A DNA stretch of 64,000 nt from Crambe crambe (lineage: Eukaryota > Porifera > Demospongiae > Poecilosclerida > Crambeidae), in assembly GCA_963924555.1 (NCBI GenBank), contig OZ004586.1, positions 8,779,634 through 8,843,633 of the forward strand, given 5' to 3'. Position numbers and translations under genes: made by a program. Numbering within the stretch: position 1 is the first letter of the stretch; each line of letters starts with the position of its first letter. The notes beneath the pieces were generated by a model that saw only the letters and a program-made list of their open reading frames with translations, searched no databases and had not been told where the DNA came from. Positions 34,741 through 64,000 of this stretch are shown piece after piece.

Positions 34741-34744
34741 CAAC

Positions 34745-37858: not shown

Positions 37859-37859
37859 C

Positions 37860-37917
37860 CTAGGGCTAGGGCTAGGGCTAGGGCTAGGGCTAGGGCTAGG
37901 GCTAGGGCTAGGGCTAG
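37860..37917. repeat. Interstitial telomeric tract 2 (58 bp)
   Basis: Perfect CTAGGG units, the same length as tract 1, lying between the short PLE fragment and the tandem PLE array. The right end again merges with the ORF1 decamer (37908-37917). Confidence 0.95.
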
Positions 37918-38224
37918 TGCATCAAGTTTTGTGTTGAGCGAACCCACGCCTGTGTTCTTCTTTGGGTAGTTCTTTTTGGCTGTTCTTGTTGCCATTGTTC
38001 TTGGTACGTCTGGTGGTAGGAAAGTTCTGGTGAATGAAGTTCTGCGTCTGATAGATAAAACAAAGCAGAGTGGTCTCTGCCACAGTTCGATAGCCGGTAG
38101 TAAATAGAGTAGAGAGATATAGCAGGTAAAAAATCTTTTTTTTGGAAAAAAGAAACACCAACGTTTCAACTAGTGGATCTAGTCTTCGTCAGGGTGAAAT
38201 GAATAAAGCACGTGGCGTGTGTGT
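37917..38224 (-). mobile_element. Pseudo-LTR: partial PLE 5' region at the proximal end of the array
   Basis: Contains the leader and the first ~29 codons of ORF1, matching 43478-43785. It lies downstream of the first full unit and would form the 3' end of its transcript. In other units the same sequence is followed by the rest of ORF1. Confidence 0.8.
38156..38196 (-). ncRNA. Hammerhead-like ribozyme motif in the PLE leader
   Basis: On the - strand: CACC, CTGACGA, A, helix II GACTAG/CTAGTT with loop ATCCA, GAA, palindromic ACGT, T and GGTG. CACC with GGTG makes a 4-bp helix I; CTGANGA and GAAA are the invariant hammerhead core. Helix III would be only 1-2 bp, the minimal form reported for Penelope-like elements, which may act as dimers. 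Against it: an extra A after the core and U rather than C at the presumed cleavage position. Predicted cleavage is just before GGTG. Confidence 0.55.
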
Positions 38225-38314
38225 CTTATATACCTAGCTATATGAGTGTTCTGATTGGTCAACGTTTGGTGAGTCTGATTGGTCGGCTATGACGTATTGG
38301 CAATGACGTATTGG
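38225..38314 (-). promoter_or_regulatory. PLE RNA polymerase II promoter: four CCAAT, two CRE-like sites, TATA box
   Basis: On the - strand: CCAAT at 38310-38314, 38296-38300, 38278-38282 and 38254-38258; CGTCA at 38304-38308 and 38290-38294; TATATAAG at 38225-38232. Transcription would begin roughly 25-30 bp downstream, just before the hammerhead-like motif. Present unchanged in every unit. Confidence 0.6.
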
Positions 38315-38814
38315 CATTTTGCTTCGGCTCCGTCTGGTGGGTGTGGCCTTCACGATCTTTTTCTCGGTCTTGTGTTGGGAGGAGAACTTGCTTCTTTTCT
38401 GTCTCTGTTGGGTCTTTTTCTCTGTTGTTGAGGTGGGATCCTGCAAGTGGTAGTTAGGGATTGTCAGAGGGTGTCTGTTTGGTAATTCTCCGTGTCGGAG
38501 GTGTCTCATTGGGTGTGGTGCTTGGTTCTGGTCTGGTGTTTGGGGCCAGACCCGAACACAGCCTTGATAGTGTCCAGTGTTTGGGGCTGGACAGTTATCT
38601 CGGCTTTGTTTGTAGCAGGGAGACGAATGGGGGTTTTTATTGGGCCAGTTGGGTCTGTAGTGTTTAGTCAGTGGGTGTGGTTCTCCATGTCGGAGATGTC
38701 TCATTGGGTGTGGTGCTTGGTTCTGGTCTGGTGTTTGGGGCCAGACCCGAACACAGCCGTGATAGTGTCCAGTGTTTGGGGCTGGACAGTTATCTTGGCT
38801 TTGTTTGTAGCAAG
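38315..38814. repeat. Region upstream of the PLE promoter with a ~195-bp direct duplication
   Basis: TCGGAGGTGTCTCATTGGG with following TGGTGCTTGGTTCTGGTCTG at 38495 recurs at 38690, and GGGGCTGGACAGTTATCT also appears twice. A 156-codon open frame (38234-38704, -) overlaps the promoter and the duplication. It is basic and low in complexity and I do not regard it as a gene. Confidence 0.6.
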
Positions 38815-39950
38815 GGCTAGGTTTGTACGGGAAGAGTTAGAGTGGGTGTGGTCTTGTGACCACTTCTAGGTGTATAGGGATGGTTTTCTCACAGTGTTAT
38901 GACAACATCTGGATGTATTTGTGTCGGTTTCTTGGCTCCAAGGCTAGGTTTGTATGGCCAAAGGGCTTGGCTAGGGCCAGGGGAAGAACTAGAGGGGGTG
39001 TGGTCTTGTGACCGCTTCTAGGTGTGCAGGGGTGGTTTTCTCACAGTGTTGTGACAACATCTAGGTGTATGTGATGTACTTGTGTTGATTTCTTGACTTT
39101 AAGGCTGGGTTTGTATAGCCAAAGGGCTTAGCTAGGGCCAGGGGAAGAGCTAGAGAGGGTGTGGTCTTGTGACGACCTCTAGGTGTACAGGGGTCGTTTT
39201 CTGACAGTGTTGTGACAACATCTAGGTGTATGGGATGTACTCGTGTGGATTTCTTGACTCCGAGGCTAGGTTTGTATGGTCAAAGGGCTTAGCTAGGGCC
39301 AGGGGAAGAGCTAGAGAGGGTGTGTTCTTGTGACACCTCTAGGCGTACAGGGGTCATTTTCTCACAGTGTTGTGACTACATCTAGGTGTATGGGATGTAC
39401 TTGTGTTGGTTTCTTGACTTCAAGGCTAGGTTTGTATGGTCAAAGGGCTTAGCTAGGGCCAGGGGAAGAGCTAGAGAGGGTGTGGTCTTGTGACAACCTC
39501 TAGGTGTACAGGGGTCGTTTTCTCACGGTGTTGTGACAACATCTAGGTGTATGAGATGTGCTTGTGTTGATTTCTTGACTCCAAGGCTAGGTTTGTATGG
39601 CCAAAGGGCTTAGCTAGGGCCTGGGGAAGAGCTAGAGGGGGTGTGGTCTTGTGGCCACTTTTAGGTGTACAGGGGTCGTTTTCTCATGGTGTTGTAACAA
39701 CATCTAGGTGTATGGGATGTACTTGTGTTGATTTCTTGGCTCCAAGGCTAGGTTTGTATGGCCAAAGGGCTTAGCTAGGGCCAGGGGGAGAGCTAGAGAG
39801 GGTGTGGTCTTGTGACAACCTCTAAGTGTACATGAGGCGTTTTTTCACAGTGTTATGACAACATCTAGGTATATGGGATGTACTTGTGTTGATTTCTTGA
39901 CTCTGAGGTTAGGTTTGTACGGCCAAAGGGCTTAGCTAAGGCTAGGGTAA
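38815..39950. repeat. ~161-bp tandem repeats in the PLE 3' region, unit 1
   Basis: About 7 copies of a unit with GGCTAGGTTTGTATGGCC, AAAGGGCTTAGCTAGGGCC, GGTGTGGTCTTGTGAC and GTGTTGTGACAACATCTAGG. G-rich on the + strand and carrying GCTAGGGCC, a near-match to the telomere repeat. It lies downstream of the ORF2 stop, as a 3' UTR. Confidence 0.85.
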
Positions 39951-40050
39951 GTGGGTGTGGTCTTGTGACCAATTCTAGGGTACGGGGAGGGGTTGGGGAG
40001 GGTGTGGTCTTTTGACCAGATTGTTTGCTTATCTTAGAGTTGATTGGGTG

Positions 40051-42558
40051 TCAATCGAATCTGCTGTTGAGGCCTTTAGGGTAGACTGTGTCCAGTTGGC
40101 TTATCCAGTGGCTCTCTCTTTGTTTGAGGGATTCTGTTTTCGTCTTTTCCAGGACTGTGATTCTTATGTCCCTTGTAAAGTCGTGGAGTGGGTCTGTAAA
40201 GTGCTTATACAAGGGGAGGTTAGTTTTAGTTGTACTGGCCGCTCTGTGGCCAGCTACTCTGGTTCCTATTGTTCTCTGGGTCTGTCCCACATATTGGTTT
40301 CTTTTGGGGCATCTGGTGCATTCCAGTAAGTAGACTACGTTCGATGTCTGACAGTTGGTGTGTTTGGGGGTAGGGAAGGTCTTGTTGTTTTGGTTGGAAG
40401 TAACCCTGGGTTTCCTAGACATTACTCTACAGCACTTGCAACCTGGTGTTGCACATGCTGCCGAGTTGCCATGAAAGTTTGGGGTCACAGGGATCTTTAT
40501 TTCCTGTGTGGACTTGGGGGGGTCCGGGAATTGTTTCAGTTTTGCCCTTACTAGTTTGTTGGCTAGGTTTTTTGGCCTCTTGAGGCTGAGGCAGGGAACA
40601 GGGACATGGTTCTTCTCCTGCTCATTTGGTTTCAGGTTTTCCTTTAACTGTTTCACATTAAGGTCTGGGGTGTATTCTGCGACCAGAAATGTGTCATATT
40701 TTGTTTGGGTGTTTCCCTTGTCTTTTTCTTGTAGGGTGAGGGGTCGTGATTCAAAGGGGACCGACTCTTGTACGTTCTTGATTAGGGATTGTGGGTATCC
40801 TCTGTCTCTGAATATTTGGTACATTTTGTCTTGTATTTTGTTGTACTCTGTTCTGCAAGAGCAGGCTCTGAGGAGTCTGGTCAATTCCCCTTTGACCACG
40901 CCCCTAAATATGTTTCTGGGATGGGCGGAGGAGTATTCCAAGTATTGGAATTTATTTGTCTTTTTAAAGAAGGGTTTGACGTCCAGTGTGCGTGTGTTAT
41001 CAAACCTCTCTCCCTTGTAGATTGTGATGTCGAGGAAGTCCACACTGCTTTCAGAGCATTCGAACGTGAACTTGATCGTGGGGTGTTTTCCGTTTAGATA
41101 CTTGACAAAGTCTTTCAGTGATTCCGGGGAGTCTGGCCAGATGCACAGGACGTCATCTATGTATCTCTTCCATAGGATGGGTGTGGTCGGATGGTCTCGG
41201 AGGAGTTTTTCTTCGAGCGAGGCCATGAAGATGTTGGCATATGCTGGGGCCATCTTAGTTCCCATTGCCGTACCCTGTACTTGGTGGAACATTTTGTCCG
41301 CAAATTGGAAATAGTTTCTGGTTAGGACTATGTTTAGGAGGTCTGACATTGTACCCGGGGGTATTGGTACTTCTTCGGCTTTGGGATTATTTGTGTAGAT
41401 TCTGTCTTTGATTGCCTGTATGCCCTCCTTGTGTGGGATGTTGAGGTACAGTGCTTTGACATCTATGGTTGCTAGGGTGCAGTTTCGTGGGAGTTTGAGT
41501 TTCTCTAGGATGTTAATTAGGTGACCAGTGTTTTTAATGTGTGATTCTATCTGGGGGACAAATGGTTGTATGTGGAGGTCCACTAGTTGGGAAATCTTTT
41601 CTGTGGGGCCTCCACATCCACTAACTATTGGTCTCACCGCTATGGGGTTCTTGTGGATCTTTTTGAGGAAGTAGAGTTGTTGTGTGCGTGGTGTTTCTCC
41701 TTTCTCGAATGTCAGGTATTTTCTGGTAGTCTCATCTATGATTCCCCTTTTGTGCATGACGCTGACGTATGTGTTGATGGCTTCCGTCAGATGTAGTGTG
41801 GGATCACTGTCAATTTGTTGGTAGATTGTGTTGTCAGAGAGGTGGTCTAGGCCATCCCTGACATATCCATCTGTGTCTTCAACCACGATGCCGGAGCCTT
41901 TGTCTGCACTCTTTATGACCAGGGTTTGGTCTGTGGCCAGTTTGTGGAGGGTGTGGCGTTCCTCTGCTGTCATGTTTGAGTTGAACCTCTTGGGGGTGAG
42001 GTCTTCAATGGATCCTTCCACGCGTTGCAGGTAGTCTTCTATCTCTTTGGAGGCTCTGGGTGGGTTCCAGGTGCTCTTTCTCCTGAATGGGTGTGGTTTG
42101 GGTGTGGCTTGGTCTCTGAACCTGTATGCAAGTCTGTTTGACCTCTTAAAGAGTGCAAAGGCATCTAGTAGGTTGGGGGTGTGCATCTTGTTACTGGGGA
42201 CAAATGTCAGGCCTTTGGATAAGACCTTAGTTTCTGTTTCTGTGAGTTTTCTGGAGGAGAGGTTAGTGACGTATTCCTGTGAGGCTATCACGTCATCTGC
42301 CCTCTTCCTGAGTGATCTATTGTATCTACTCTTATGGTTCTCAGGTATGTAGGTTGGAACAATTTTATTGATTCTGAGTTTATATAGTTTTGGTCTTTGG
42401 TGACGTGTATAATTATCTGTGTAGTTACCTATGTAATTATCTAGTTGTACAGTTGTTTTACTGGCCGTACTCCTGGTTACTTGCCAGTATGCCGGAAAAC
42501 CTGCGTGTTCAGAGGAGGCAGCGGGGGTTGCTGCTCCTGCTGAACTCCCTGGGCCCAC
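40051..42558 (-). CDS. PLE ORF2: reverse transcriptase with GIY-YIG endonuclease (unit 1)
   Basis: 835 aa. Residues 295-520 form a Penelope-type RT: LKKIHKNPIAVRPIVSG, motif A TIDVKALYLNIP (Asp366), motif B QGTAMGTKMAPAYANIF (428-444), motif C RYIDDV (Asp468, Asp469), then DFLDI. Residues 700-750 hold a Cys/His cluster (C702, C707, C709, C710, H733, C736, C747, C750). The GIY-YIG domain follows: VVYLLEC (Tyr743), QYVGQT (Tyr756), Arg767, His771, Glu815 in RESHWI, and Asn831 in GLN. All expected catalytic residues are present, so the enzyme looks active. It would copy the PLE RNA and nick DNA. It starts inside ORF1 (overlap 42477-42558) in the -1 frame, so frameshifting or reinitiation is needed. 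No frame-breaking mutation seen. Confidence 0.93.
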   Translation of the reverse strand: MGPGSSAGAATPAASSEHAGFPAYWQVTRSTASKTTVQLDNYIGNYTDNYTRHQRPKLYKLRINKIVPTYIPENHKSRYNRSLRKRADDVIASQEYVTNLSSRKLTETETKVLSKGLTFVPSNKMHTPNLLDAFALFKRSNRLAYRFRDQATPKPHPFRRKSTWNPPRASKEIEDYLQRVEGSIEDLTPKRFNSNMTAEERHTLHKLATDQTLVIKSADKGSGIVVEDTDGYVRDGLDHLSDNTIYQQIDSDPTLHLTEAINTYVSVMHKRGIIDETTRKYLTFEKGETPRTQQLYFLKKIHKNPIAVRPIVSGCGGPTEKISQLVDLHIQPFVPQIESHIKNTGHLINILEKLKLPRNCTLATIDVKALYLNIPHKEGIQAIKDRIYTNNPKAEEVPIPPGTMSDLLNIVLTRNYFQFADKMFHQVQGTAMGTKMAPAYANIFMASLEEKLLRDHPTTPILWKRYIDDVLCIWPDSPESLKDFVKYLNGKHPTIKFTFECSESSVDFLDITIYKGERFDNTRTLDVKPFFKKTNKFQYLEYSSAHPRNIFRGVVKGELTRLLRACSCRTEYNKIQDKMYQIFRDRGYPQSLIKNVQESVPFESRPLTLQEKDKGNTQTKYDTFLVAEYTPDLNVKQLKENLKPNEQEKNHVPVPCLSLKRPKNLANKLVRAKLKQFPDPPKSTQEIKIPVTPNFHGNSAACATPGCKCCRVMSRKPRVTSNQNNKTFPTPKHTNCQTSNVVYLLECTRCPKRNQYVGQTQRTIGTRVAGHRAASTTKTNLPLYKHFTDPLHDFTRDIRITVLEKTKTESLKQRESHWISQLDTVYPKGLNSRFD

Positions 42559-43556
42559 AGCGGTGGTTGCTGAGGGTAACCAGGGGTGCAGTACGGCAAA
42601 GGTGCTGGTGGGGGTACCCGGTGGGGGGTTAGTGGTGGTACATACCCCTGTTGGACGAGGGAGGAGAGGAGACCCATCAGGATTCTTCCCGGATCCATGG
42701 GCGGGGCCATCATTGGTGGTGGGTGTTGACTTCCAGAGGGTGGGGCTTGGGTGGGTGGTAGCTCTTCACGTCTTGGACGGCGTTCTTTCTTCTTGTGGGT
42801 CTCCCTTTCCCTTTCCCTTCTCGTCCGGTTGGTAGTGCTGGAGGAGGCGGCGGAGGTTGAGAGGTCCTGTCCTCTCCTCTTCTTCTGTCTCTGGGGATTT
42901 GGTTCCTCCAGATTGGAGAGTTTCCTTTTCTTTCTTTCGGTTAGTTTCTCTCTCTCCCTCATGACGTTGTCCAGGGTCTTAGTCATCATGACTGTATGCC
43001 TTTCCCTTTGCTCTGGGGAGACTTGGGGGAGTCTGGCATCCATGGCCTCCTGGATCTCCGCCTTCTCACGGGAGAGTCTGAGGTATGTTTGTTCGTAGTG
43101 ATCTACGAGTAGAGAGGTCAGTTCCCTTTGGGTCCGGTTTGTGGTCTCTTTGAATCTTTGTTGTACGTCCGTGTAGTCAGCCAAGAGGGCATTGCATTTC
43201 GTCCCCACCTGTAGGCCTTTGGGGATTCTGTCGTTTTGTAGGCAGTCCGCGAGGAACTGCCTATGGGAGTCGACTTTGGTTAGATTTGTGGCAGTCCTTT
43301 TAAACTTCTGACGGAGGGCTAACAGTGCCTTGTCGTCTGGCAGCTCTGGTTCGGTTGTGGCTGGAGGGTCTGTCTGCATGAGCAGCTCCTGGAGAGCTTC
43401 TTGCGCATCTAGTACAGTGTCGGTTGGTTTGGTGGTGGTGGCGGATCGAGTCTTGGGTCCAGCTCCGTCTAGGGCTAGTGCATCAAGTTTTGTGTTGAGC
43501 GAACCCACGCCTGTGTTCTTCTTTGGGTAGTTCTTTTTGGCTGTTCTTGTTGCCAT
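42477..43556 (-). CDS. PLE ORF1: basic coiled-coil protein (unit 1)
   Basis: The 359-aa product starts at MATRTAKKNYPKKN. The frame is open upstream to 43730 (MKRWCFFFPKK), but that part covers the leader and hammerhead-like motif, so I prefer the internal Met. Residues 25-29 (DALAL) are encoded by the telomere-like decamer CTAGGGCTAG. Residues 135-215 are charged with heptad-like spacing (likely coiled coil). Basic clusters KKRKLS (209-214), RQKKRRG (223-229) and RRERERETHKKKERRPRRE (246-264) look like nuclear localisation or RNA-binding signals. Residues 266-350 are Pro/Gln-rich. No zinc knuckle seen. A second PLE protein of this kind would be expected to bind RNA or the telomere; that is inference. 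Confidence 0.75.
   Translation of the reverse strand: MATRTAKKNYPKKNTGVGSLNTKLDALALDGAGPKTRSATTTKPTDTVLDAQEALQELLMQTDPPATTEPELPDDKALLALRQKFKRTATNLTKVDSHRQFLADCLQNDRIPKGLQVGTKCNALLADYTDVQQRFKETTNRTQRELTSLLVDHYEQTYLRLSREKAEIQEAMDARLPQVSPEQRERHTVMMTKTLDNVMREREKLTERKKRKLSNLEEPNPQRQKKRRGQDLSTSAASSSTTNRTRRERERETHKKKERRPRREELPPTQAPPSGSQHPPPMMAPPMDPGRILMGLLSSLVQQGYVPPLTPHRVPPPAPLPYCTPGYPQQPPLWAQGVQQEQQPPLPPLNTQVFRHTGK
43469..43478 (-). other. Telomere-matching decamer within ORF1 (unit 1)
   Basis: CTAGGGCTAG on the + strand. The RNA carries its complement, which could pair with a telomeric G-strand overhang. Repeated at 49030-49039 and 54591-54600. Both array-proximal truncations, at 37529 and 37908, fall precisely here. 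Confidence 0.7.
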
Positions 43557-43716
43557 TGTTCTTGGTACGTCTGGTGGTAGGAAAGTTCTGGTGAATGAAG
43601 TTCTGCGTCTGATAGATAAAACAAAGCAGAGTGGTCTCTGCCACAGTTCGATAGCCGGTAGTAAATAGAGTAGAGAGATATAGCAGGTAAAAAATCTTTT
43701 TTTTGGAAAAAAGAAA

Positions 43717-43757
43717 CACCAACGTTTCAACTAGTGGATCTAGTCTTCGTCAGGGTG
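43717..43757 (-). ncRNA. Hammerhead-like motif, unit 1 leader
   Basis: Identical to 38156-38196, shifted by 5561 bp. Confidence 0.55.
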
Positions 43758-43785
43758 AAATGAATAAAGCACGTGGCGTGTGTGT

Positions 43786-43875
43786 CTTATATACCTAGCT
43801 ATATGAGTGTTCTGATTGGTCAACGTTTGGTGAGTCTGATTGGTCGGCTATGACGTATTGGCAATGACGTATTGG
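43786..43875 (-). promoter_or_regulatory. PLE promoter, drives unit 1
   Basis: Same CCAAT, CRE-like and TATATAAG set as 38225-38314. It lies about 230 bp upstream of the preferred ORF1 start at 43556. Confidence 0.6.
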
Positions 43876-44375
43876 CATTTTGCTTCGGCTCCGTCTGGTG
43901 GGTGTGGCCTTCACGATCTTTTTCTCGGTCTTGTGTTGGGAGGAGAACTTGCTTCTTTTCTGTCTCTGTTGGGTCTTTTTCTCTGTTGTTGAGGTGGGAT
44001 CCTGCAAGTGGTAGTTAGGGATTGTCAGAGGGTGTCTGTTTGGTAATTCTCCGTGTCGGAGGTGTCTCATTGGGTGTGGTGCTTGGTTCTGGTCTGGTGT
44101 TTGGGGCCAGACCCGAACACAGCCTTGATAGTGTCCAGTGTTTGGGGCTGGACAGTTATCTCGGCTTTGTTTGTAGCAGGGAGACGAATGGGGGTTTTTA
44201 TTGGGCCAGTTGGGTCTGTAGTGTTTAGTCAGTGGGTGTGGTTCTCCATGTCGGAGATGTCTCATTGGGTGTGGTGCTTGGTTCTGGTCTGGTGTTTGGG
44301 GCCAGACCCGAACACAGCCGTGATAGTGTCCAGTGTTTGGGGCTGGACAGTTATCTTGGCTTTGTTTGTAGCAAG

Positions 44376-45511
44376 GGCTAGGTTTGTACGGGAAGAGTTA
44401 GAGTGGGTGTGGTCTTGTGACCACTTCTAGGTGTATAGGGATGGTTTTCTCACAGTGTTATGACAACATCTGGATGTATTTGTGTCGGTTTCTTGGCTCC
44501 AAGGCTAGGTTTGTATGGCCAAAGGGCTTGGCTAGGGCCAGGGGAAGAACTAGAGGGGGTGTGGTCTTGTGACCGCTTCTAGGTGTGCAGGGGTGGTTTT
44601 CTCACAGTGTTGTGACAACATCTAGGTGTATGTGATGTACTTGTGTTGATTTCTTGACTTTAAGGCTGGGTTTGTATAGCCAAAGGGCTTAGCTAGGGCC
44701 AGGGGAAGAGCTAGAGAGGGTGTGGTCTTGTGACGACCTCTAGGTGTACAGGGGTCGTTTTCTGACAGTGTTGTGACAACATCTAGGTGTATGGGATGTA
44801 CTCGTGTGGATTTCTTGACTCCGAGGCTAGGTTTGTATGGTCAAAGGGCTTAGCTAGGGCCAGGGGAAGAGCTAGAGAGGGTGTGTTCTTGTGACACCTC
44901 TAGGCGTACAGGGGTCATTTTCTCACAGTGTTGTGACTACATCTAGGTGTATGGGATGTACTTGTGTTGGTTTCTTGACTTCAAGGCTAGGTTTGTATGG
45001 TCAAAGGGCTTAGCTAGGGCCAGGGGAAGAGCTAGAGAGGGTGTGGTCTTGTGACAACCTCTAGGTGTACAGGGGTCGTTTTCTCACGGTGTTGTGACAA
45101 CATCTAGGTGTATGAGATGTGCTTGTGTTGATTTCTTGACTCCAAGGCTAGGTTTGTATGGCCAAAGGGCTTAGCTAGGGCCTGGGGAAGAGCTAGAGGG
45201 GGTGTGGTCTTGTGGCCACTTTTAGGTGTACAGGGGTCGTTTTCTCATGGTGTTGTAACAACATCTAGGTGTATGGGATGTACTTGTGTTGATTTCTTGG
45301 CTCCAAGGCTAGGTTTGTATGGCCAAAGGGCTTAGCTAGGGCCAGGGGGAGAGCTAGAGAGGGTGTGGTCTTGTGACAACCTCTAAGTGTACATGAGGCG
45401 TTTTTTCACAGTGTTATGACAACATCTAGGTATATGGGATGTACTTGTGTTGATTTCTTGACTCTGAGGTTAGGTTTGTACGGCCAAAGGGCTTAGCTAA
45501 GGCTAGGGTAA
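44376..45511. repeat. ~161-bp tandem repeats, unit 2
   Basis: Same as 38815-39950 with no difference seen; follows the ORF2 stop of unit 2. Confidence 0.85.
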
Positions 45512-45611
45512 GTGGGTGTGGTCTTGTGACCAATTCTAGGGTACGGGGAGGGGTTGGGGAGGGTGTGGTCTTTTGACCAGATTGTTTGCTTATCTTAGAG
45601 TTGATTGGGTG

Positions 45612-48119
45612 TCAATCGAATCTGCTGTTGAGGCCTTTAGGGTAGACTGTGTCCAGTTGGCTTATCCAGTGGCTCTCTCTTTGTTTGAGGGATTCTGTTT
45701 TCGTCTTTTCCAGGACTGTGATTCTTATGTCCCTTGTAAAGTCGTGGAGTGGGTCTGTAAAGTGCTTATACAAGGGGAGGTTAGTTTTAGTTGTACTGGC
45801 CGCTCTGTGGCCAGCTACTCTGGTTCCTATTGTTCTCTGGGTCTGTCCCACATATTGGTTTCTTTTGGGGCATCTGGTGCATTCCAGTAAGTAGACTACG
45901 TTCGATGTCTGACAGTTGGTGTGTTTGGGGGTAGGGAAGGTCTTGTTGTTTTGGTTGGAAGTAACCCTGGGTTTCCTAGACATTACTCTACAGCACTTGC
46001 AACCTGGTGTTGCACATGCTGCCGAGTTGCCATGAAAGTTTGGGGTCACAGGGATCTTTATTTCCTGTGTGGACTTGGGGGGGTCCGGGAATTGTTTCAG
46101 TTTTGCCCTTACTAGTTTGTTGGCTAGGTTTTTTGGCCTCTTGAGGCTGAGGCAGGGAACAGGGACATGGTTCTTCTCCTGCTCATTTGGTTTCAGGTTT
46201 TCCTTTAACTGTTTCACATTAAGGTCTGGGGTGTATTCTGCGACCAGAAATGTGTCATATTTTGTTTGGGTGTTTCCCTTGTCTTTTTCTTGTAGGGTGA
46301 GGGGTCGTGATTCAAAGGGGACCGACTCTTGTACGTTCTTGATTAGGGATTGTGGGTATCCTCTGTCTCTGAATATTTGGTACATTTTGTCTTGTATTTT
46401 GTTGTACTCTGTTCTGCAAGAGCAGGCTCTGAGGAGTCTGGTCAATTCCCCTTTGACCACGCCCCTAAATATGTTTCTGGGATGGGCGGAGGAGTATTCC
46501 AAGTATTGGAATTTATTTGTCTTTTTAAAGAAGGGTTTGACGTCCAGTGTGCGTGTGTTATCAAACCTCTCTCCCTTGTAGATTGTGATGTCGAGGAAGT
46601 CCACACTGCTTTCAGAGCATTCGAACGTGAACTTGATCGTGGGGTGTTTTCCGTTTAGATACTTGACAAAGTCTTTCAGTGATTCCGGGGAGTCTGGCCA
46701 GATGCACAGGACGTCATCTATGTATCTCTTCCATAGGATGGGTGTGGTCGGATGGTCTCGGAGGAGTTTTTCTTCGAGCGAGGCCATGAAGATGTTGGCA
46801 TATGCTGGGGCCATCTTAGTTCCCATTGCCGTACCCTGTACTTGGTGGAACATTTTGTCCGCAAATTGGAAATAGTTTCTGGTTAGGACTATGTTTAGGA
46901 GGTCTGACATTGTACCCGGGGGTATTGGTACTTCTTCGGCTTTGGGATTATTTGTGTAGATTCTGTCTTTGATTGCCTGTATGCCCTCCTTGTGTGGGAT
47001 GTTGAGGTACAGTGCTTTGACATCTATGGTTGCTAGGGTGCAGTTTCGTGGGAGTTTGAGTTTCTCTAGGATGTTAATTAGGTGACCAGTGTTTTTAATG
47101 TGTGATTCTATCTGGGGGACAAATGGTTGTATGTGGAGGTCCACTAGTTGGGAAATCTTTTCTGTGGGGCCTCCACATCCACTAACTATTGGTCTCACCG
47201 CTATGGGGTTCTTGTGGATCTTTTTGAGGAAGTAGAGTTGTTGTGTGCGTGGTGTTTCTCCTTTCTCGAATGTCAGGTATTTTCTGGTAGTCTCATCTAT
47301 GATTCCCCTTTTGTGCATGACGCTGACGTATGTGTTGATGGCTTCCGTCAGATGTAGTGTGGGATCACTGTCAATTTGTTGGTAGATTGTGTTGTCAGAG
47401 AGGTGGTCTAGGCCATCCCTGACATATCCATCTGTGTCTTCAACCACGATGCCGGAGCCTTTGTCTGCACTCTTTATGACCAGGGTTTGGTCTGTGGCCA
47501 GTTTGTGGAGGGTGTGGCGTTCCTCTGCTGTCATGTTTGAGTTGAACCTCTTGGGGGTGAGGTCTTCAATGGATCCTTCCACGCGTTGCAGGTAGTCTTC
47601 TATCTCTTTGGAGGCTCTGGGTGGGTTCCAGGTGCTCTTTCTCCTGAATGGGTGTGGTTTGGGTGTGGCTTGGTCTCTGAACCTGTATGCAAGTCTGTTT
47701 GACCTCTTAAAGAGTGCAAAGGCATCTAGTAGGTTGGGGGTGTGCATCTTGTTACTGGGGACAAATGTCAGGCCTTTGGATAAGACCTTAGTTTCTGTTT
47801 CTGTGAGTTTTCTGGAGGAGAGGTTAGTGACGTATTCCTGTGAGGCTATCACGTCATCTGCCCTCTTCCTGAGTGATCTATTGTATCTACTCTTATGGTT
47901 CTCAGGTATGTAGGTTGGAACAATTTTATTGATTCTGAGTTTATATAGTTTTGGTCTTTGGTGACGTGTATAATTATCTGTGTAGTTACCTATGTAATTA
48001 TCTAGTTGTACAGTTGTTTTACTGGCCGTACTCCTGGTTACTTGCCAGTATGCCGGAAAACCTGCGTGTTCAGAGGAGGCAGCGGGGGTTGCTGCTCCTG
48101 CTGAACTCCCTGGGCCCAC
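45612..48119 (-). CDS. PLE ORF2: RT plus GIY-YIG endonuclease (unit 2)
   Basis: 835 aa with the same amino-acid sequence as the unit 1 copy; YIDD, the Cys/His cluster and the GIY-YIG residues are intact. The overlap with ORF1 is at 48038-48119. Confidence 0.93.
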   Translation of the reverse strand: MGPGSSAGAATPAASSEHAGFPAYWQVTRSTASKTTVQLDNYIGNYTDNYTRHQRPKLYKLRINKIVPTYIPENHKSRYNRSLRKRADDVIASQEYVTNLSSRKLTETETKVLSKGLTFVPSNKMHTPNLLDAFALFKRSNRLAYRFRDQATPKPHPFRRKSTWNPPRASKEIEDYLQRVEGSIEDLTPKRFNSNMTAEERHTLHKLATDQTLVIKSADKGSGIVVEDTDGYVRDGLDHLSDNTIYQQIDSDPTLHLTEAINTYVSVMHKRGIIDETTRKYLTFEKGETPRTQQLYFLKKIHKNPIAVRPIVSGCGGPTEKISQLVDLHIQPFVPQIESHIKNTGHLINILEKLKLPRNCTLATIDVKALYLNIPHKEGIQAIKDRIYTNNPKAEEVPIPPGTMSDLLNIVLTRNYFQFADKMFHQVQGTAMGTKMAPAYANIFMASLEEKLLRDHPTTPILWKRYIDDVLCIWPDSPESLKDFVKYLNGKHPTIKFTFECSESSVDFLDITIYKGERFDNTRTLDVKPFFKKTNKFQYLEYSSAHPRNIFRGVVKGELTRLLRACSCRTEYNKIQDKMYQIFRDRGYPQSLIKNVQESVPFESRPLTLQEKDKGNTQTKYDTFLVAEYTPDLNVKQLKENLKPNEQEKNHVPVPCLSLKRPKNLANKLVRAKLKQFPDPPKSTQEIKIPVTPNFHGNSAACATPGCKCCRVMSRKPRVTSNQNNKTFPTPKHTNCQTSNVVYLLECTRCPKRNQYVGQTQRTIGTRVAGHRAASTTKTNLPLYKHFTDPLHDFTRDIRITVLEKTKTESLKQRESHWISQLDTVYPKGLNSRFD

Positions 48120-49117: not shown

Positions 49118-49277
49118 TGTTCTTGGTACGTCTGGTGGTAGGAAAGTTCTGGTGAATGAAGTTCTGCGTCTGATAGATAAAACAAAGCAGAGTGGTCTCT
49201 GCCACAGTTCGATAGCCGGTAGTAAATAGAGTAGAGAGATATAGCAGGTAAAAAATCTTTTTTTTGGAAAAAAGAAA

Positions 49278-49318
49278 CACCAACGTTTCAACTAGTGGAT
49301 CTAGTCTTCGTCAGGGTG
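49278..49318 (-). ncRNA. Hammerhead-like motif, unit 2 leader
   Basis: Identical to 38156-38196. Confidence 0.55.
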
Positions 49319-49346
49319 AAATGAATAAAGCACGTGGCGTGTGTGT

Positions 49347-54678: not shown

Positions 54679-54838
54679 TGTTCTTGGTACGTCTGGTGGT
54701 AGGAAAGTTCTGGTGAATGAAGTTCTGCGTCTGATAGATAAAACAAAGCAGAGTGGTCTCTGCCACAGTTCGATAGCCGGTAGTAAATAGAGTAGAGAGA
54801 TATAGCAGGTAAAAAATCTTTTTTTTGGAAAAAAGAAA

Positions 54839-54879
54839 CACCAACGTTTCAACTAGTGGATCTAGTCTTCGTCAGGGTG
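54839..54879 (-). ncRNA. Hammerhead-like motif, unit 3 leader
   Basis: Identical to 38156-38196. Confidence 0.55.
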
Positions 54880-54907
54880 AAATGAATAAAGCACGTGGCG
54901 TGTGTGT

Positions 54908-54997
54908 CTTATATACCTAGCTATATGAGTGTTCTGATTGGTCAACGTTTGGTGAGTCTGATTGGTCGGCTATGACGTATTGGCAATGACGTATTGG
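54908..54997 (-). promoter_or_regulatory. PLE promoter, drives unit 3
   Basis: Same motif set. It is the most distal intact promoter; upstream of it only a truncated 3' region separates it from the telomere. Confidence 0.6.
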
Positions 54998-56216
54998 CAT
55001 TTTGCTTCGGCTCCGTCTGGTGGGTGTGGCCTTCACGATCTTTTTCTCGGTCTTGTGTTGGGAGGAGAACTTGCTTCTTTTCTGTCTCTGTTGGGTCTTT
55101 TTCTCTGTTGTTGAGGTGGGATCCTGCAAGTGGTAGTTAGGGATTGTCAGAGGGTGTCTGTTTGGTAATTCTCCGTGTCGGAGGTGTCTCATTGGGTGTG
55201 GTGCTTGGTTCTGGTCTGGTGTTTGGGGCCAGACCCGAACACAGCCTTGATAGTGTCCAGTGTTTGGGGCTGGACAGTTATCTCGGCTTTGTTTGTAGCA
55301 GGGAGACGAATGGGGGTTTTTATTGGGCCAGTTGGGTCTGTAGTGTTTAGTCAGTGGGTGTGGTTCTCCATGTCGGAGATGTCTCATTGGGTGTGGTGCT
55401 TGGTTCTGGTCTGGTGTTTGGGGCCAGACCCGAACACAGCCGTGATAGTGTCCAGTGTTTGGGGCTGGACAGTTATCTTGGCTTTGTTTGTAGCAAGGGC
55501 TAGGTTTGTACGGGAAGAGTTAGAGTGGGTGTGGTCTTGTGACCACTTCTAGGTGTATAGGGATGGTTTTCTCACAGTGTTATGACAACATCTGGATGTA
55601 TTTGTGTCGGTTTCTTGGCTCCAAGGCTAGGTTTGTATGGCCAAAGGGCTTGGCTAGGGCCAGGGGAAGAACTAGAGGGGGTGTGGTCTTGTGACCGCTT
55701 CTAGGTGTGCAGGGGTGGTTTTCTCACAGTGTTGTGACAACATCTAGGTGTATGTGATGTACTTGTGTTGATTTCTTGACTTTAAGGCTGGGTTTGTATA
55801 GCCAAAGGGCTTAGCTAGGGCCAGGGGAAGAGCTAGAGAGGGTGTGGTCTTGTGACGACCTCTAGGTGTACAGGGGTCGTTTTCTGACAGTGTTGTGACA
55901 ACATCTAGGTGTATGGGATGTACTCGTGTGGATTTCTTGACTCCGAGGCTAGGTTTGTATGGTCAAAGGGCTTAGCTAGGGCCAGGGGAAGAGCTAGAGA
56001 GGGTGTGTTCTTGTGACACCTCTAGGCGTACAGGGGTCATTTTCTCACAGTGTTGTGACTACATCTAGGTGTATGGGATGTACTTGTGTTGGTTTCTTGA
56101 CTTCAAGGCTAGGTTTGTATGGTCAAAGGGCTTAGCTAGGGCCAGGGGAAGAGCTAGAGAGGGTGTGGTCTTGTGACAACCTCTAGGTGTACAGGGGTCG
56201 TTTTCTCACGGTGTTG
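54998..56216 (-). mobile_element. 5'-truncated PLE capping the array
   Basis: Contains the ~195-bp duplication and about 4.5 of the 161-bp repeats (from 55498), then stops at GGTGTTG (56216), equivalent to 39533 in unit 1. ORF2 and ORF1 of this copy are absent. The next base starts the telomeric array. A 5'-truncated last insertion is expected from incomplete reverse transcription or from end erosion. Confidence 0.85.
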
Positions 56217-59200
56217 GGCTAGGGCTAGGGCTAGGGGCTAGGGCTAGGGCTAGGGCTAGGGCTAGGGCTAGGGCTAGGGCTAGGGCTAGGGCTAGGGCTA
56301 GGGCTAGGGCTAGGGCTAGGGCTAGGGCTAGGGGCTAGGGCTAGGGCTAGGGCTAGGGCTAGGGCTAGGGCTAGGGCTAGGGCTAGGGCTAGGGCTAGGG
56401 CTAGGGCTAGGGCTAGGGCTAGGGCTAGGGCTAGGGCTAGGGCTAGGGCTAGGGCTAGGGCTAGGGCTAGGGCTAGGGCTAGGGCTAGGGCTAGGGCTAG
56501 GGCTAGGGCTAGGGCTAGGGCTAGGGCTAGGGCTAGGGCTAGGGCTAGGGCTAGGGCTAGGGCTAGGGCTAGGGCTAGGGCTAGGGCTAGGGCTAGGGCT
56601 AGGGCTAGGGCTAGGGCTAGGGCTAGGGCTAGGGCTAGGGCTAGGGCTAGGGCTAGGGCTAGGGCTAGGGCTAGGGCTAGGGCTAGGGCTAGGGCTAGGG
56701 CTAGGGCTAGGGCTAGGGCTAGGGCTAGGGCTAGGGCTAGGGCTAGGGCTAGGGCTAGGGCTAGGGCTAGGGCTAGGGCTAGGGCTAGGGCTAGGGCTAG
56801 GGCTAGGGCTAGGGCTAGGGCTAGGGCTAGGGCTAGGGCTAGGGCTAGGGCTAGGGCTAGGGCTAGGGCTAGGGCTAGGGCTAGGGCTAGGGCTAGGGCT
56901 AGGGCTAGGGCTAGGGCTAGGGCTAGGGCTAGGGCTAGGGCTAGGGCTAGGGCTAGGGCTAGGGCTAGGGCTAGGGCTAGGGCTAGGGCTAGGGCTAGGG
57001 CTAGGGCTAGGGCTAGGGCTAGGGCTAGGGCTAGGGCTAGGGCTAGGGCTAGGGCTAGGGCTAGGGCTAGGGCTAGGGCTAGGGCTAGGGCTAGGGCTAG
57101 GGCTAGGGCTAGGGCTAGGGCTAGGGCTAGGGCTAGGGCTAGGGCTAGGGCTAGGGCTAGGGCTAGGGCTAGGGCTAGGGCTAGGGCTAGGGCTAGGGCT
57201 AGGGCTAGGGCTAGGGCTAGGGCTAGGGCTAGGGCTAGGGCTAGGGCTAGGGCTAGGGCTAGGGCTAGGGCTAGGGCTAGGGCTAGGGCTAGGGCTAGGG
57301 CTAGGGCTAGGGCTAGGGCTAGGGCTAGGGCTAGGGCTAGGGCTAGGGCTAGGGCTAGGGCTAGGGCTAGGGCTAGGGCTAGGGCTAGGGCTAGGGCTAG
57401 GGCTAGGGCTAGGGCTAGGGCTAGGGCTAGGGCTAGGGCTAGGGCTAGGGCTAGGGCTAGGGCTAGGGCTAGGGCTAGGGCTAGGGCTAGGGCTAGGGCT
57501 AGGGCTAGGGCTAGGGCTAGGGCTAGGGCTAGGGCTAGGGCTAGGGCTAGGGCTAGGGCTAGGGCTAGGGCTAGGGCTAGGGCTAGGGCTAGGGCTAGGG
57601 CTAGGGCTAGGGCTAGGGCTAGGGCTAGGGCTAGGGCTAGGGCTAGGGCTAGGGCTAGGGCTAGGGCTAGGGCTAGGGCTAGGGCTAGGGCTAGGGCTAG
57701 GGCTAGGGCTAGGGCTAGGGCTAGGGCTAGGGCTAGGGCTAGGGCTAGGGCTAGGGCTAGGGCTAGGGCTAGGGCTAGGGCTAGGGCTAGGGCTAGGGCT
57801 AGGGCTAGGGCTAGGGCTAGGGCTAGGGCTAGGGCTAGGGCTAGGGCTAGGGCTAGGGCTAGGGCTAGGGCTAGGGCTAGGGCTAGGGCTAGGGCTAGGG
57901 CTAGGGCTAGGGCTAGGGCTAGGGCTAGGGCTAGGGCTAGGGCTAGGGCTAGGGCTAGGGCTAGGGCTAGGGCTAGGGCTAGGGCTAGGGCTAGGGCTAG
58001 GGCTAGGGCTAGGGCTAGGGCTAGGGCTAGGGCTAGGGCTAGGGCTAGGGCTAGGGCTAGGGCTAGGGCTAGGGCTAGGGCTAGGGCTAGGGCTAGGGCT
58101 AGGGCTAGGGCTAGGGCTAGGGCTAGGGCTAGGGCTAGGGCTAGGGCTAGGGCTAGGGCTAGGGCTAGGGCTAGGGCTAGGGCTAGGGCTAGGGCTAGGG
58201 CTAGGGCTAGGGCTAGGGCTAGGGCTAGGGCTAGGGCTAGGGCTAGGGCTAGGGCTAGGGCTAGGGCTAGGGCTAGGGCTAGGGCTAGGGCTAGGGCTAG
58301 GGCTAGGGCTAGGGCTAGGGCTAGGGCTAGGGCTAGGGCTAGGGCTAGGGCTAGGGCTAGGGCTAGGGCTAGGGCTAGGGCTAGGGCTAGGGCTAGGGCT
58401 AGGGCTAGGGCTAGGGCTAGGGCTAGGGCTAGGGCTAGGGCTAGGGCTAGGGCTAGGGCTAGGGCTAGGGCTAGGGCTAGGGCTAGGGCTAGGGCTAGGG
58501 CTAGGGCTAGGGCTAGGGCTAGGGCTAGGGCTAGGGCTAGGGCTAGGGCTAGGGCTAGGGCTAGGGCTAGGGCTAGGGCTAGGGCTAGGGCTAGGGCTAG
58601 GGCTAGGGCTAGGGCTAGGGCTAGGGCTAGGGCTAGGGCTAGGGCTAGGGCTAGGGCTAGGGCTAGGGCTAGGGCTAGGGCTAGGGCTAGGGCTAGGGCT
58701 AGGGCTAGGGCTAGGGCTAGGGCTAGGGCTAGGGCTAGGGCTAGGGCTAGGGCTAGGGCTAGGGCTAGGGCTAGGGCTAGGGCTAGGGCTAGGGCTAGGG
58801 CTAGGGCTAGGGCTAGGGCTAGGGCTAGGGCTAGGGCTAGGGCTAGGGCTAGGGCTAGGGCTAGGGCTAGGGCTAGGGCTAGGGCTAGGGCTAGGGCTAG
58901 GGCTAGGGCTAGGGCTAGGGCTAGGGCTAGGGCTAGGGCTAGGGCTAGGGCTAGGGCTAGGGCTAGGGCTAGGGCTAGGGCTAGGGCTAGGGCTAGGGCT
59001 AGGGCTAGGGCTAGGGCTAGGGCTAGGGCTAGGGCTAGGGCTAGGGCTAGGGCTAGGGCTAGGGCTAGGGCTAGGGCTAGGGCTAGGGCTAGGGCTAGGG
59101 CTAGGGCTAGGGCTAGGGCTAGGGCTAGGGCTAGGGCTAGGGCTAGGGCTAGGGCTAGGGCTAGGGCTAGGGCTAGGGCTAGGGCTAGGGCTAGGGCTAG

Positions 59201-62200
59201 GGCTAGGGCTAGGGCTAGGGCTAGGGCTAGGGCTAGGGCTAGGGCTAGGGCTAGGGCTAGGGCTAGGGCTAGGGCTAGGGCTAGGGCTAGGGCTAGGGCT
59301 AGGGCTAGGGCTAGGGCTAGGGCTAGGGCTAGGGCTAGGGCTAGGGCTAGGGCTAGGGCTAGGGCTAGGGCTAGGGCTAGGGCTAGGGCTAGGGCTAGGG
59401 CTAGGGCTAGGGCTAGGGCTAGGGCTAGGGCTAGGGCTAGGGCTAGGGCTAGGGCTAGGGCTAGGGCTAGGGCTAGGGCTAGGGCTAGGGCTAGGGCTAG
59501 GGCTAGGGCTAGGGCTAGGGCTAGGGCTAGGGCTAGGGCTAGGGCTAGGGCTAGGGCTAGGGCTAGGGCTAGGGCTAGGGCTAGGGCTAGGGCTAGGGCT
59601 AGGGCTAGGGCTAGGGCTAGGGCTAGGGCTAGGGCTAGGGCTAGGGCTAGGGCTAGGGCTAGGGCTAGGGCTAGGGCTAGGGCTAGGGCTAGGGCTAGGG
59701 CTAGGGCTAGGGCTAGGGCTAGGGCTAGGGCTAGGGCTAGGGCTAGGGCTAGGGCTAGGGCTAGGGCTAGGGCTAGGGCTAGGGCTAGGGCTAGGGCTAG
59801 GGCTAGGGCTAGGGCTAGGGCTAGGGCTAGGGCTAGGGCTAGGGCTAGGGCTAGGGCTAGGGCTAGGGCTAGGGCTAGGGCTAGGGCTAGGGCTAGGGCT
59901 AGGGCTAGGGCTAGGGCTAGGGCTAGGGCTAGGGCTAGGGCTAGGGCTAGGGCTAGGGCTAGGGCTAGGGCTAGGGCTAGGGCTAGGGCTAGGGCTAGGG
60001 CTAGGGCTAGGGCTAGGGCTAGGGCTAGGGCTAGGGCTAGGGCTAGGGCTAGGGCTAGGGCTAGGGCTAGGGCTAGGGCTAGGGCTAGGGCTAGGGCTAG
60101 GGCTAGGGCTAGGGCTAGGGCTAGGGCTAGGGCTAGGGCTAGGGCTAGGGCTAGGGCTAGGGCTAGGGCTAGGGCTAGGGCTAGGGCTAGGGCTAGGGCT
60201 AGGGCTAGGGCTAGGGCTAGGGCTAGGGCTAGGGCTAGGGCTAGGGCTAGGGCTAGGGCTAGGGCTAGGGCTAGGGCTAGGGCTAGGGCTAGGGCTAGGG
60301 CTAGGGCTAGGGCTAGGGCTAGGGCTAGGGCTAGGGCTAGGGCTAGGGCTAGGGCTAGGGCTAGGGCTAGGGCTAGGGCTAGGGCTAGGGCTAGGGCTAG
60401 GGCTAGGGCTAGGGCTAGGGCTAGGGCTAGGGCTAGGGCTAGGGCTAGGGCTAGGGCTAGGGCTAGGGCTAGGGCTAGGGCTAGGGCTAGGGCTAGGGCT
60501 AGGGCTAGGGCTAGGGCTAGGGCTAGGGCTAGGGCTAGGGCTAGGGCTAGGGCTAGGGCTAGGGCTAGGGCTAGGGCTAGGGCTAGGGCTAGGGCTAGGG
60601 CTAGGGCTAGGGCTAGGGCTAGGGCTAGGGCTAGGGCTAGGGCTAGGGCTAGGGCTAGGGCTAGGGCTAGGGCTAGGGCTAGGGCTAGGGCTAGGGCTAG
60701 GGCTAGGGCTAGGGCTAGGGCTAGGGCTAGGGCTAGGGCTAGGGCTAGGGCTAGGGCTAGGGCTAGGGCTAGGGCTAGGGCTAGGGCTAGGGCTAGGGCT
60801 AGGGCTAGGGCTAGGGCTAGGGCTAGGGCTAGGGCTAGGGCTAGGGCTAGGGCTAGGGCTAGGGCTAGGGCTAGGGCTAGGGCTAGGGCTAGGGCTAGGG
60901 CTAGGGCTAGGGCTAGGGCTAGGGCTAGGGCTAGGGCTAGGGCTAGGGCTAGGGCTAGGGCTAGGGCTAGGGCTAGGGCTAGGGCTAGGGCTAGGGCTAG
61001 GGCTAGGGCTAGGGCTAGGGCTAGGGCTAGGGCTAGGGCTAGGGCTAGGGCTAGGGCTAGGGCTAGGGCTAGGGCTAGGGCTAGGGCTAGGGCTAGGGCT
61101 AGGGCTAGGGCTAGGGCTAGGGCTAGGGCTAGGGCTAGGGCTAGGGCTAGGGCTAGGGCTAGGGCTAGGGCTAGGGCTAGGGCTAGGGCTAGGGCTAGGG
61201 CTAGGGCTAGGGCTAGGGCTAGGGCTAGGGCTAGGGCTAGGGCTAGGGCTAGGGCTAGGGCTAGGGCTAGGGCTAGGGCTAGGGCTAGGGCTAGGGCTAG
61301 GGCTAGGGCTAGGGCTAGGGCTAGGGCTAGGGCTAGGGCTAGGGCTAGGGCTAGGGCTAGGGCTAGGGCTAGGGCTAGGGCTAGGGCTAGGGCTAGGGCT
61401 AGGGCTAGGGCTAGGGCTAGGGCTAGGGCTAGGGCTAGGGCTAGGGCTAGGGCTAGGGCTAGGGCTAGGGCTAGGGCTAGGGCTAGGGCTAGGGCTAGGG
61501 CTAGGGCTAGGGCTAGGGCTAGGGCTAGGGCTAGGGCTAGGGCTAGGGCTAGGGCTAGGGCTAGGGCTAGGGCTAGGGCTAGGGCTAGGGCTAGGGCTAG
61601 GGCTAGGGCTAGGGCTAGGGCTAGGGCTAGGGCTAGGGCTAGGGCTAGGGCTAGGGCTAGGGCTAGGGCTAGGGCTAGGGCTAGGGCTAGGGCTAGGGCT
61701 AGGGCTAGGGCTAGGGCTAGGGCTAGGGCTAGGGCTAGGGCTAGGGCTAGGGCTAGGGCTAGGGCTAGGGCTAGGGCTAGGGCTAGGGCTAGGGCTAGGG
61801 CTAGGGCTAGGGCTAGGGCTAGGGCTAGGGCTAGGGCTAGGGCTAGGGCTAGGGCTAGGGCTAGGGCTAGGGCTAGGGCTAGGGCTAGGGCTAGGGCTAG
61901 GGCTAGGGCTAGGGCTAGGGCTAGGGCTAGGGCTAGGGCTAGGGCTAGGGCTAGGGCTAGGGCTAGGGCTAGGGCTAGGGCTAGGGCTAGGGCTAGGGCT
62001 AGGGCTAGGGCTAGGGCTAGGGCTAGGGCTAGGGCTAGGGCTAGGGCTAGGGCTAGGGCTAGGGCTAGGGCTAGGGCTAGGGCTAGGGCTAGGGCTAGGG
62101 CTAGGGCTAGGGCTAGGGCTAGGGCTAGGGCTAGGGCTAGGGCTAGGGCTAGGGCTAGGGCTAGGGCTAGGGCTAGGGCTAGGGCTAGGGCTAGGGCTAG

Positions 62201-64000
62201 GGCTAGGGCTAGGGCTAGGGCTAGGGCTAGGGCTAGGGCTAGGGCTAGGGCTAGGGCTAGGGCTAGGGCTAGGGCTAGGGCTAGGGCTAGGGCTAGGGCT
62301 AGGGCTAGGGCTAGGGCTAGGGCTAGGGCTAGGGCTAGGGCTAGGGCTAGGGCTAGGGCTAGGGCTAGGGCTAGGGCTAGGGCTAGGGCTAGGGCTAGGG
62401 CTAGGGCTAGGGCTAGGGCTAGGGCTAGGGCTAGGGCTAGGGCTAGGGCTAGGGCTAGGGCTAGGGCTAGGGCTAGGGCTAGGGCTAGGGCTAGGGCTAG
62501 GGCTAGGGCTAGGGCTAGGGCTAGGGCTAGGGCTAGGGCTAGGGCTAGGGCTAGGGCTAGGGCTAGGGCTAGGGCTAGGGCTAGGGCTAGGGCTAGGGCT
62601 AGGGCTAGGGCTAGGGCTAGGGCTAGGGCTAGGGCTAGGGCTAGGGCTAGGGCTAGGGCTAGGGCTAGGGCTAGGGCTAGGGCTAGGGCTAGGGCTAGGG
62701 CTAGGGCTAGGGCTAGGGCTAGGGCTAGGGCTAGGGCTAGGGCTAGGGCTAGGGCTAGGGCTAGGGCTAGGGCTAGGGCTAGGGCTAGGGCTAGGGCTAG
62801 GGCTAGGGCTAGGGCTAGGGCTAGGGCTAGGGCTAGGGCTAGGGCTAGGGCTAGGGCTAGGGCTAGGGCTAGGGCTAGGGCTAGGGCTAGGGCTAGGGCT
62901 AGGGCTAGGGCTAGGGCTAGGGCTAGGGCTAGGGCTAGGGCTAGGGCTAGGGCTAGGGCTAGGGCTAGGGCTAGGGCTAGGGCTAGGGCTAGGGCTAGGG
63001 CTAGGGCTAGGGCTAGGGCTAGGGCTAGGGCTAGGGCTAGGGCTAGGGCTAGGGCTAGGGCTAGGGCTAGGGCTAGGGCTAGGGCTAGGGCTAGGGCTAG
63101 GGCTAGGGCTAGGGCTAGGGCTAGGGCTAGGGCTAGGGCTAGGGCTAGGGCTAGGGCTAGGGCTAGGGCTAGGGCTAGGGCTAGGGCTAGGGCTAGGGCT
63201 AGGGCTAGGGCTAGGGCTAGGGCTAGGGCTAGGGCTAGGGCTAGGGCTAGGGCTAGGGCTAGGGCTAGGGCTAGGGCTAGGGCTAGGGCTAGGGCTAGGG
63301 CTAGGGCTAGGGCTAGGGCTAGGGCTAGGGCTAGGGCTAGGGCTAGGGCTAGGGCTAGGGCTAGGGCTAGGGCTAGGGCTAGGGCTAGGGCTAGGGCTAG
63401 GGCTAGGGCTAGGGCTAGGGCTAGGGCTAGGGCTAGGGCTAGGGCTAGGGCTAGGGCTAGGGCTAGGGCTAGGGCTAGGGCTAGGGCTAGGGCTAGGGCT
63501 AGGGCTAGGGCTAGGGCTAGGGCTAGGGCTAGGGCTAGGGCTAGGGCTAGGGCTAGGGCTAGGGCTAGGGCTAGGGCTAGGGCTAGGGCTAGGGCTAGGG
63601 CTAGGGCTAGGGCTAGGGCTAGGGCTAGGGCTAGGGCTAGGGCTAGGGCTAGGGCTAGGGCTAGGGCTAGGGCTAGGGCTAGGGCTAGGGCTAGGGCTAG
63701 GGCTAGGGCTAGGGCTAGGGCTAGGGCTAGGGCTAGGGCTAGGGCTAGGGCTAGGGCTAGGGCTAGGGCTAGGGCTAGGGCTAGGGCTAGGGCTAGGGCT
63801 AGGGCTAGGGCTAGGGCTAGGGCTAGGGCTAGGGCTAGGGCTAGGGCTAGGGCTAGGGCTAGGGCTAGGGCTAGGGCTAGGGCTAGGGCTAGGGCTAGGG
63901 CTAGGGCTAGGGCTAGGGCTAGGGCTAGGGCTAGGGCTAGGGCTAGGGCTAGGGCTAGGGCTAGGGCTAGGGCTAGGGCTAGGGCTAGGGCTAGGGCTAG
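56217..64000. repeat. Telomere: (CTAGGG)n, at least 7.8 kb
   Basis: About 1300 hexamers, G-rich strand 5'->3' toward the right edge. Near the start a few units have an extra G (GGGGCTA at about 56232-56238 and about 56330-56336); beyond that I saw no variants. The polarity and terminal position mark a chromosome end. The motif differs by one base from the usual animal TTAGGG. Confidence 0.95.

Follow-up and report, generated by a model that had tools for sequence, protein, structure and literature searches.

Tandem Penelope-like elements at the right tip of contig C9

The window, i.e. the whole stretch of 64,000 nucleotides of Crambe crambe DNA that was analysed, represents the right tip of contig C9, in an assembly of 143 Mb and 119 contigs (Table 1). 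It harbours about 3.3 head-to-tail units of a Penelope-like retroelement (PLE), which directly abut the telomeric array: the 12,748 bp from position 37908 to 50655 match the sequence 5,561 bp onward with 0 mismatches, the outermost copy ends at position 56216, and (GGGCTA)n extends from there to position 64000. ORF1 and ORF2 are both located on the minus strand and are read from the telomere to the chromosome interior, hence the 3' ends of the elements point to the chromosome body. Both the tandem arrangement and the inward direction of all 3' ends had been part of the original prediction and were confirmed by the self-match and by the strand of the ORFs, respectively. The number of units in the array, three of which are identical, may have been mis-sized by the assembler. 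Tandem and partial tandem units, together with a 3' end (pLTR) that extends into the start of an ORF, are traits shared with other PLEs.

Table 1. Coordinates of the features identified in the window.
Feature	Position	Strand	Remarks
Inner (CTAGGG)9CTAG tract, 58 bp	37481..37538	+	
5'-truncated element fragment, ~320 bp	37539..37859	-	3' end joined at the ORF1 motif to telomere repeat
(CTAGGG)9CTAG tract, 58 bp	37860..37917	+	inner junction of the tandem array
Tandem PLE array, 3.3 identical 5,561-bp units	37908..56216	-	5' truncation of the outermost unit at unit position 1616
161-bp tandem repeats in the 3' part	38829..39951	-	also 44390-45512, 49951-51073, 55512-56216; telomere-like 8-mers, sense strand only
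ORF2, 904-codon open frame, reverse transcriptase (RT) + GIY-YIG	40051..42765	-	copies 45612-48326, 51173-53887
GIY-YIG endonuclease domain	40054..40350	-	Y812, Y825, R836, H840, E884, N900 of ORF2, numbered from the open frame
RT core	41101..41592	-	Pfam RVT_1, E 1.3e-9
ORF1, 359 aa from ATG	42477..43556	-	copies 48038-49117, 53599-54678
RT-start / telomere-complement motif CUAGCCCUAG in ORF1, codons 27-30 (+79 to +88)	43469..43478	-	also 49030-49039, 54591-54600
Terminal telomere array (CTAGGG)n, 7.8 kb	56216..64000	+	reaches contig end

Between the two inner CTAGGG tracts, each of exactly 58 bp, sits the element fragment of ~320 bp, whose junction is identical to that of the array; this fragment with a junction of its own was absent from the original prediction. 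The region at positions 34103-37480 is occupied by nested, AGGTT-rich subtelomeric repeats with 224-bp units, which by eye resemble the flanks at the ends of C10 and C13.

Apart from the RT core, ORF2 contains motifs which we take to be PLE-like RT motifs, and an in-genome relative (29% identity over 497 aligned positions) shows only a weak match to telomerase RT in the PDB (E 0.37). Telomerase and PLEs are considered to have a common ancestor, according to the available part of PMC3846280. No direct Pfam match was obtained for the GIY-YIG domain of ORF2; an in-genome relative with 31% identity over 137 aligned positions clears the Pfam GIY-YIG cut-off (23.8 vs 22.6 bits). The Tyr, Tyr, Arg, His, Glu and Asn positions, presumably catalytic, are retained in ORF2, in line with the earlier claim that the Tyr, Arg, Glu and Asn residues are kept. 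Sequence searches of the PDB for a GIY-YIG match returned none, those of NCBIfam and PHROGs gave weak nuclease hints only, and the search of viral_contigs revealed no relatives. Judging from the residues retained, a C-terminal GIY-YIG endonuclease (EN) is present and residue-intact, i.e. the element is EN(+). A single-sequence AlphaFold model of the C-terminal 315 aa of ORF2 was unusable (mean pLDDT 38).

ORF1 and ORF2 overlap at positions 42477-42765 in different frames, and ORF2 has its first Met at residue 194; its expression may therefore need a frameshift or splicing. The overlap was scanned for a strict in-phase -1 slippery heptamer, and none was found.

The inner edge of the array is not the end of a 3' UTR: positions 37908-37917 fall within the start of ORF1, at nucleotides +79 to +88 as counted from the ATG at 43556. 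The coding DNA of ORF1 codons 27-30 is CTAGCCCTAG, the complement of the telomere repeat; intact units read GCA CTA GCC CTA GAC at this site, ten ORF1 bases being telomere-complementary in the sense orientation. At the inner end of the array, the telomere repeat passes into CTAG followed by TGCATCAAG, the complement of the ORF1 codons up to 27. The sole 10-nt telomere-complementary match of the unit is located exactly at the junction site, and such a match occurs anywhere in 3.25% of shuffled units. The element has a telomere-complementary stretch, within ORF1, at what would be the 3' end of its RNA.

The predicted folding of the RNA surrounding the motif was not better than that of shuffled sequences (z 0.44). 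A hammerhead core-like string, CTGACGA...GAAAC, occurs in the element, with stem I not evident by eye, and an Rfam scan for the hammerhead ribozyme gave no match. For want of an Rfam hammerhead, we did not adopt the idea that the identical units arose by a rolling-circle route via a ribozyme and circular RNA.

Element 3' ends and chromosome ends across the assembly

The 26-bp tag beside the junction was searched for over 143 Mb with up to three mismatches. Of the 33 matches of a separate pattern search, only those running on into the element were used. The tag was found in 14 places, three of them in frame inside the C9 array and the other 11 at element 3' ends, all of which (11/11) lie opposite CUAGCCC near the beginning of ORF1 and are preceded by GGGCTAG. 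Nine of these 11 young 3' ends adjoin telomere repeat (two on C9, two in series on C13, and one each on C10, C20, the C3 tip, C47 and C113) and represent five chromosome ends or duplicate contigs, the remaining two being located away from the telomere (C3:129k and C3:414k). The orientation toward the nearest tip is identical in all placed cases. As the flanks of C47, C113 and the C3 tip are common at 98.6-99.4%, these three were regarded as one event; contig C113 ends within the element, leaving the outer side unseen. With the number of loci judged by hand, five of seven lie within 20 kb of a chromosome end, 42 ends being assumed (P ~1e-10). The anticipated occurrence of CTAGGG junctions in one orientation was thus substantiated at several ends: nine of the 11 near-identical 3' ends adjoin telomere repeat, and these differ in their 5' truncation and, for the most part, in their flanks.

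At C10:8718042-8730060, a forward CTAGGG array is followed by a reversed CCCTAG array, so that two telomeres stand head to head, which is probably a scaffold misjoin. Since the reversed telomere array follows the C10 copy, the latter was taken as lying at an end. A block of up to 1.45 kb upstream of the junction is found at C3:129k and at the C20 end, with a related one at C3:2.02 Mb (L039, L041 and L046 for the three copies), the element parts differing in age. C20 and C3:129k have 1.45 kb of flank in common at 99% and the C3:2.02 Mb flank is related to it, hence these copies may not be independent. Eleven interior places with CTAGGGCTAGGGCTAGGGCATCAGT were observed at C11:1.70-3.71 Mb, perhaps a satellite with interstitial telomere-like repeats.

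The 5' breaks of the telomeric copies are located at unit positions ~320, 995, 1107, 1148, 1366, 1616 and 1696, and the two copies in series on C13 have different breaks. Wherever the outer side is visible, CTAGGG repeat lies directly on the 5' break, in some cases via shared letters (5 nt at C10, 4 nt at the C9 fragment). The six longer breaks are all situated among the 161-bp repeats (unit positions 912-2034), and a bias to short products could account for part of this clustering. The inner telomere tracts measure 24-147 bp at the nine telomeric 3' ends and 19 and 7 bp at the other two. The outer arrays, by contrast, extend over 5.4-8.4 kb, as estimated from boundaries and sampled points, the value for C10 being 6 kb or more. 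Of six ends that lack the 3' tag, all (6/6) had telomere repeat 2 kb in and none (0/6) had it 9 kb in. Three inner tracts (37481-37538, 37860-37917 and L041 1443-1500) consist of exactly (CTAGGG)9CTAG and were perhaps RNA-templated or copied.

The young copies, C3:129k included, differ by 0-12 of 972-975 bp, a range which, like the count of informative sites, leaves out C3:414k (truncated at 698) and the 320-bp C9 fragment; two variant sites are common to the C13 copies. A DNA search with window positions 37918-38830 yielded 30 matches, including the near-identical copies and the C9 fragment (96%). The other matches exhibit 75-94% identity and are located on C3, C5, C11, C13 and C16, away from tips except for the C13:7.54 Mb copy, which lies 24 kb from a non-telomeric contig end. 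The old copies at C5:5.50 Mb, C13:7.54 Mb and C3:2.02 Mb likewise terminate at CUAGCCC and have no telomere tract, which indicates that the 3' site is set by the RT, independently of a telomeric location. The C5 copy is accompanied by a 54-bp exact target duplication ending GGCTAAGG and adjoining CTGGGTTAGGG, a telomere-like site, and target cutting has therefore occurred. Target duplications of at least 9 bp were found in none of five other copies; for two of these (L050, L052), which stop elsewhere than at the junction, the result is hardly informative. From the older CUAGCCCUCGAU to the young CUAGCCCUAGAC the changes are synonymous, one of them extending the telomere match. Among the 50 of 110 candidates that were scored, ORF2 was found at 100% only in the C9 array, which is thus likely the source of the young copies. 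The proposed telomere-targeting EN(+) lineage therefore holds as regards an EN(+) element with telomere bias and a fixed orientation at several ends, but the bias is confined to the young copies, since the older relatives are interior.

Proposed attachment to telomeres and alternative explanations

CTAGGG caps 28 of the 41 contig tips sampled (15/23 starts and 13/18 ends, that of the window included). On C6, a search without exon modelling recovered a TERT RNA-binding domain as two pieces, one of them containing an in-frame stop. Three zf-C4 receptor hits in the assembly point to an animal genome. The tag is known at 4 of the 28 telomeric tips, plus the misjoined C10 end, the other 24 being without it. 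Because a TERT domain is encoded and 24/28 telomeric tips show no tag, the element looks, from the sequence data at hand, like a passenger of telomeres rather than their builder, and the part of the original prediction that described it as telomere-building was not supported. HeT-A and TART of Drosophila form head-to-tail arrays with the 3' ends toward the chromosome body and replace telomerase. The C. crambe array resembles them in being head-to-tail with inward 3' ends; here, however, the ends are capped by repeats of the telomerase type, the genome codes for a TERT domain, and the element neither takes the place of telomerase nor is present at most ends.

The reading that we prefer, with a probability of roughly two in three, is that of an EN(+) PLE which attaches to telomeres, its internal RT start site having turned into a telomere-complementary template. 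By analogy with PLEs whose RT start lies inside an ORF, a tandem or multimeric RNA would carry the ORF1 start near its 3' side. The CUAGCCCUAG motif would pair with a G-rich 3' end, provided either by a short telomere or by a nick in telomere-like DNA, and this paired end would prime reverse transcription. Synthesis of the cDNA would stop early, usually in the 161-bp repeats, after which telomerase would extend the free cDNA 3' end with CTAGGG, sometimes from a telomere-like seed, until a full telomere is restored. The C9 array would be the master locus, formed either from a single multi-unit cDNA or through recombination at a later time. Short inner tracts combined with long outer arrays fit such attachment to short ends followed by telomerase, and do not fit random cuts in long arrays.

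The strongest rival is recombination between telomeres, in which one or very few telomeric insertions spread from end to end by recombination or break-induced replication through CTAGGG, while erosion and telomerase healing make the 5' breaks. Copying would be expected to give one orientation and one 3' junction at all ends, and the small divergence of the young copies (0-12 of 972-975 bp), the two variant sites shared by the C13 copies and the flank shared by C20 and C3:129k point the same way. However, the interior copies on C5, with its 54-bp target duplication, and at C13:7.54 Mb have their 3' end at the identical base and lack a telomere tract, which argues that this 3' end is made by retrotransposition; moreover, the C3:414k flank is unlike the other nine flanks compared and carries only three repeats, and the C13 copies stand in series with differing breaks. 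Spread by recombination seems rather unlikely.

Alternatively, the EN might cut within double-stranded telomeric repeats, as TRAS/SART do, which represent a different RT class with an APE-type nuclease; the telomere on both sides of a copy would then be pre-existing. We regard this as quite unlikely. Telomere repeat does flank copies on both sides, the endonuclease appears intact by residue, and one old copy has a target duplication at telomere-like sequence, but random cuts would leave kilobases of repeat on the inside, and the inner tracts measure 24-147 bp against outer arrays of 5-8 kb. Cutting near the base of the telomere may still take place, since target duplications are invisible within repeats.

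A further variant assigns to CUAGCCCUAG, which equals 1.67 telomere repeats, the role of a true repeat template: the PLE RT would copy it, slip back and recopy it, adding CTAGGG before the element. The template of telomerase RNA is of about the same size. This variant is hinted at by C3:414k, an interior flank without telomere where GGGCTAGGGCTAGGGCTAG precedes the element, and by the three tracts of exactly (CTAGGG)9CTAG. We consider it decidedly improbable; if true, a coding sequence would double as a telomerase-RNA-like template. Lastly, the chance placement of an ordinary EN(+) PLE tandem beside one telomere, combined with misjoined contigs, is hardly credible, for although C10 does contain a head-to-head telomere misjoin and the C3 tip, C47 and C113 do duplicate one end, five separate chromosome ends with differing breaks are involved (P ~1e-10).

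Relation to known retroelements

In a literature search of limited depth, the available parts of the sources contained no description of an EN(+) PLE as telomere-targeting. The nearest case is that of the lake sturgeon (PMC12031113), in which degraded GIY-YIG PLEs lie by telomere-like repeats of variable length on a subset of five contigs beside an integrated herpesvirus. It resembles the present one in that EN(+) PLE sequence has telomere-like repeats on one side, but the ORFs are not intact, and in the portion of the report available the PLEs are mentioned in passing and telomere targeting is not inferred by its authors (PMC12031113). PLEs have been described as having either one ORF with EN or two ORFs without it (available part of PMC6431247). 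The element of C. crambe joins two ORFs, an EN and a telomere complement at an internal start site. If attachment to telomeres through this site is true, loss of the EN is not needed for the life of a PLE at telomeres, the telomere-attaching PLEs described being without EN, and the element would provide a case of an internal RT start site becoming a telomere template.

As far as the accessible text of PMC4700185 goes, TRAS and SART of Bombyx, which are non-LTR elements, are likewise EN(+) retrotransposons within telomere repeats, but are reported to be full-length at telomeres and not 5'-truncated. Reverse transcription of PAc, an EN(+) PLE, begins within the ORF, 111-118 nt from its start, at a site without homology to the cleaved DNA (part of PMC11167929). 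The pLTR of one Adineta Pen family includes the first 12 aa of the ORF, or 22 aa if the tail is counted (part of PMC3846280). PAc/Poseidon and Adineta Pen elements thus resemble the present one in combining RT with GIY-YIG, in their tandem units and in an RT start or pLTR end within the first ORF codons (PMC11167929, PMC3846280). PAc, however, prefers AT-rich targets in the part of the source available, whereas here the start site matches the telomere, the young copies are mostly telomeric and a separate ORF1 is present.

The Athena/Terminon elements of bdelloid rotifers share with the C. crambe element a PLE RT, telomere attachment, telomere repeat at the truncated 5' end and a telomere-complementary stretch at the RNA 3' end, according to the available portions of PMC6431247, PMC3846280 and PMC12477314. 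In the EN-deficient Terminons, reverse-complement telomere repeats are exposed at the RNA 3' end and pair with chromosome ends (PMC6431247, in part). Of the Athena/Terminon traits, the location of insertions at chromosome ends, their truncated 5' ends bearing telomere repeat, was found here and the absence of EN was not: the RT protein of Athena/Terminon elements, as described in the text available, is without an endonuclease, whereas the GIY-YIG domain is kept in C. crambe. Furthermore, their C-rich repeats are reported there to be non-coding and to lie beside a hammerhead ribozyme, whereas here the telomere complement is coding sequence of ORF1.
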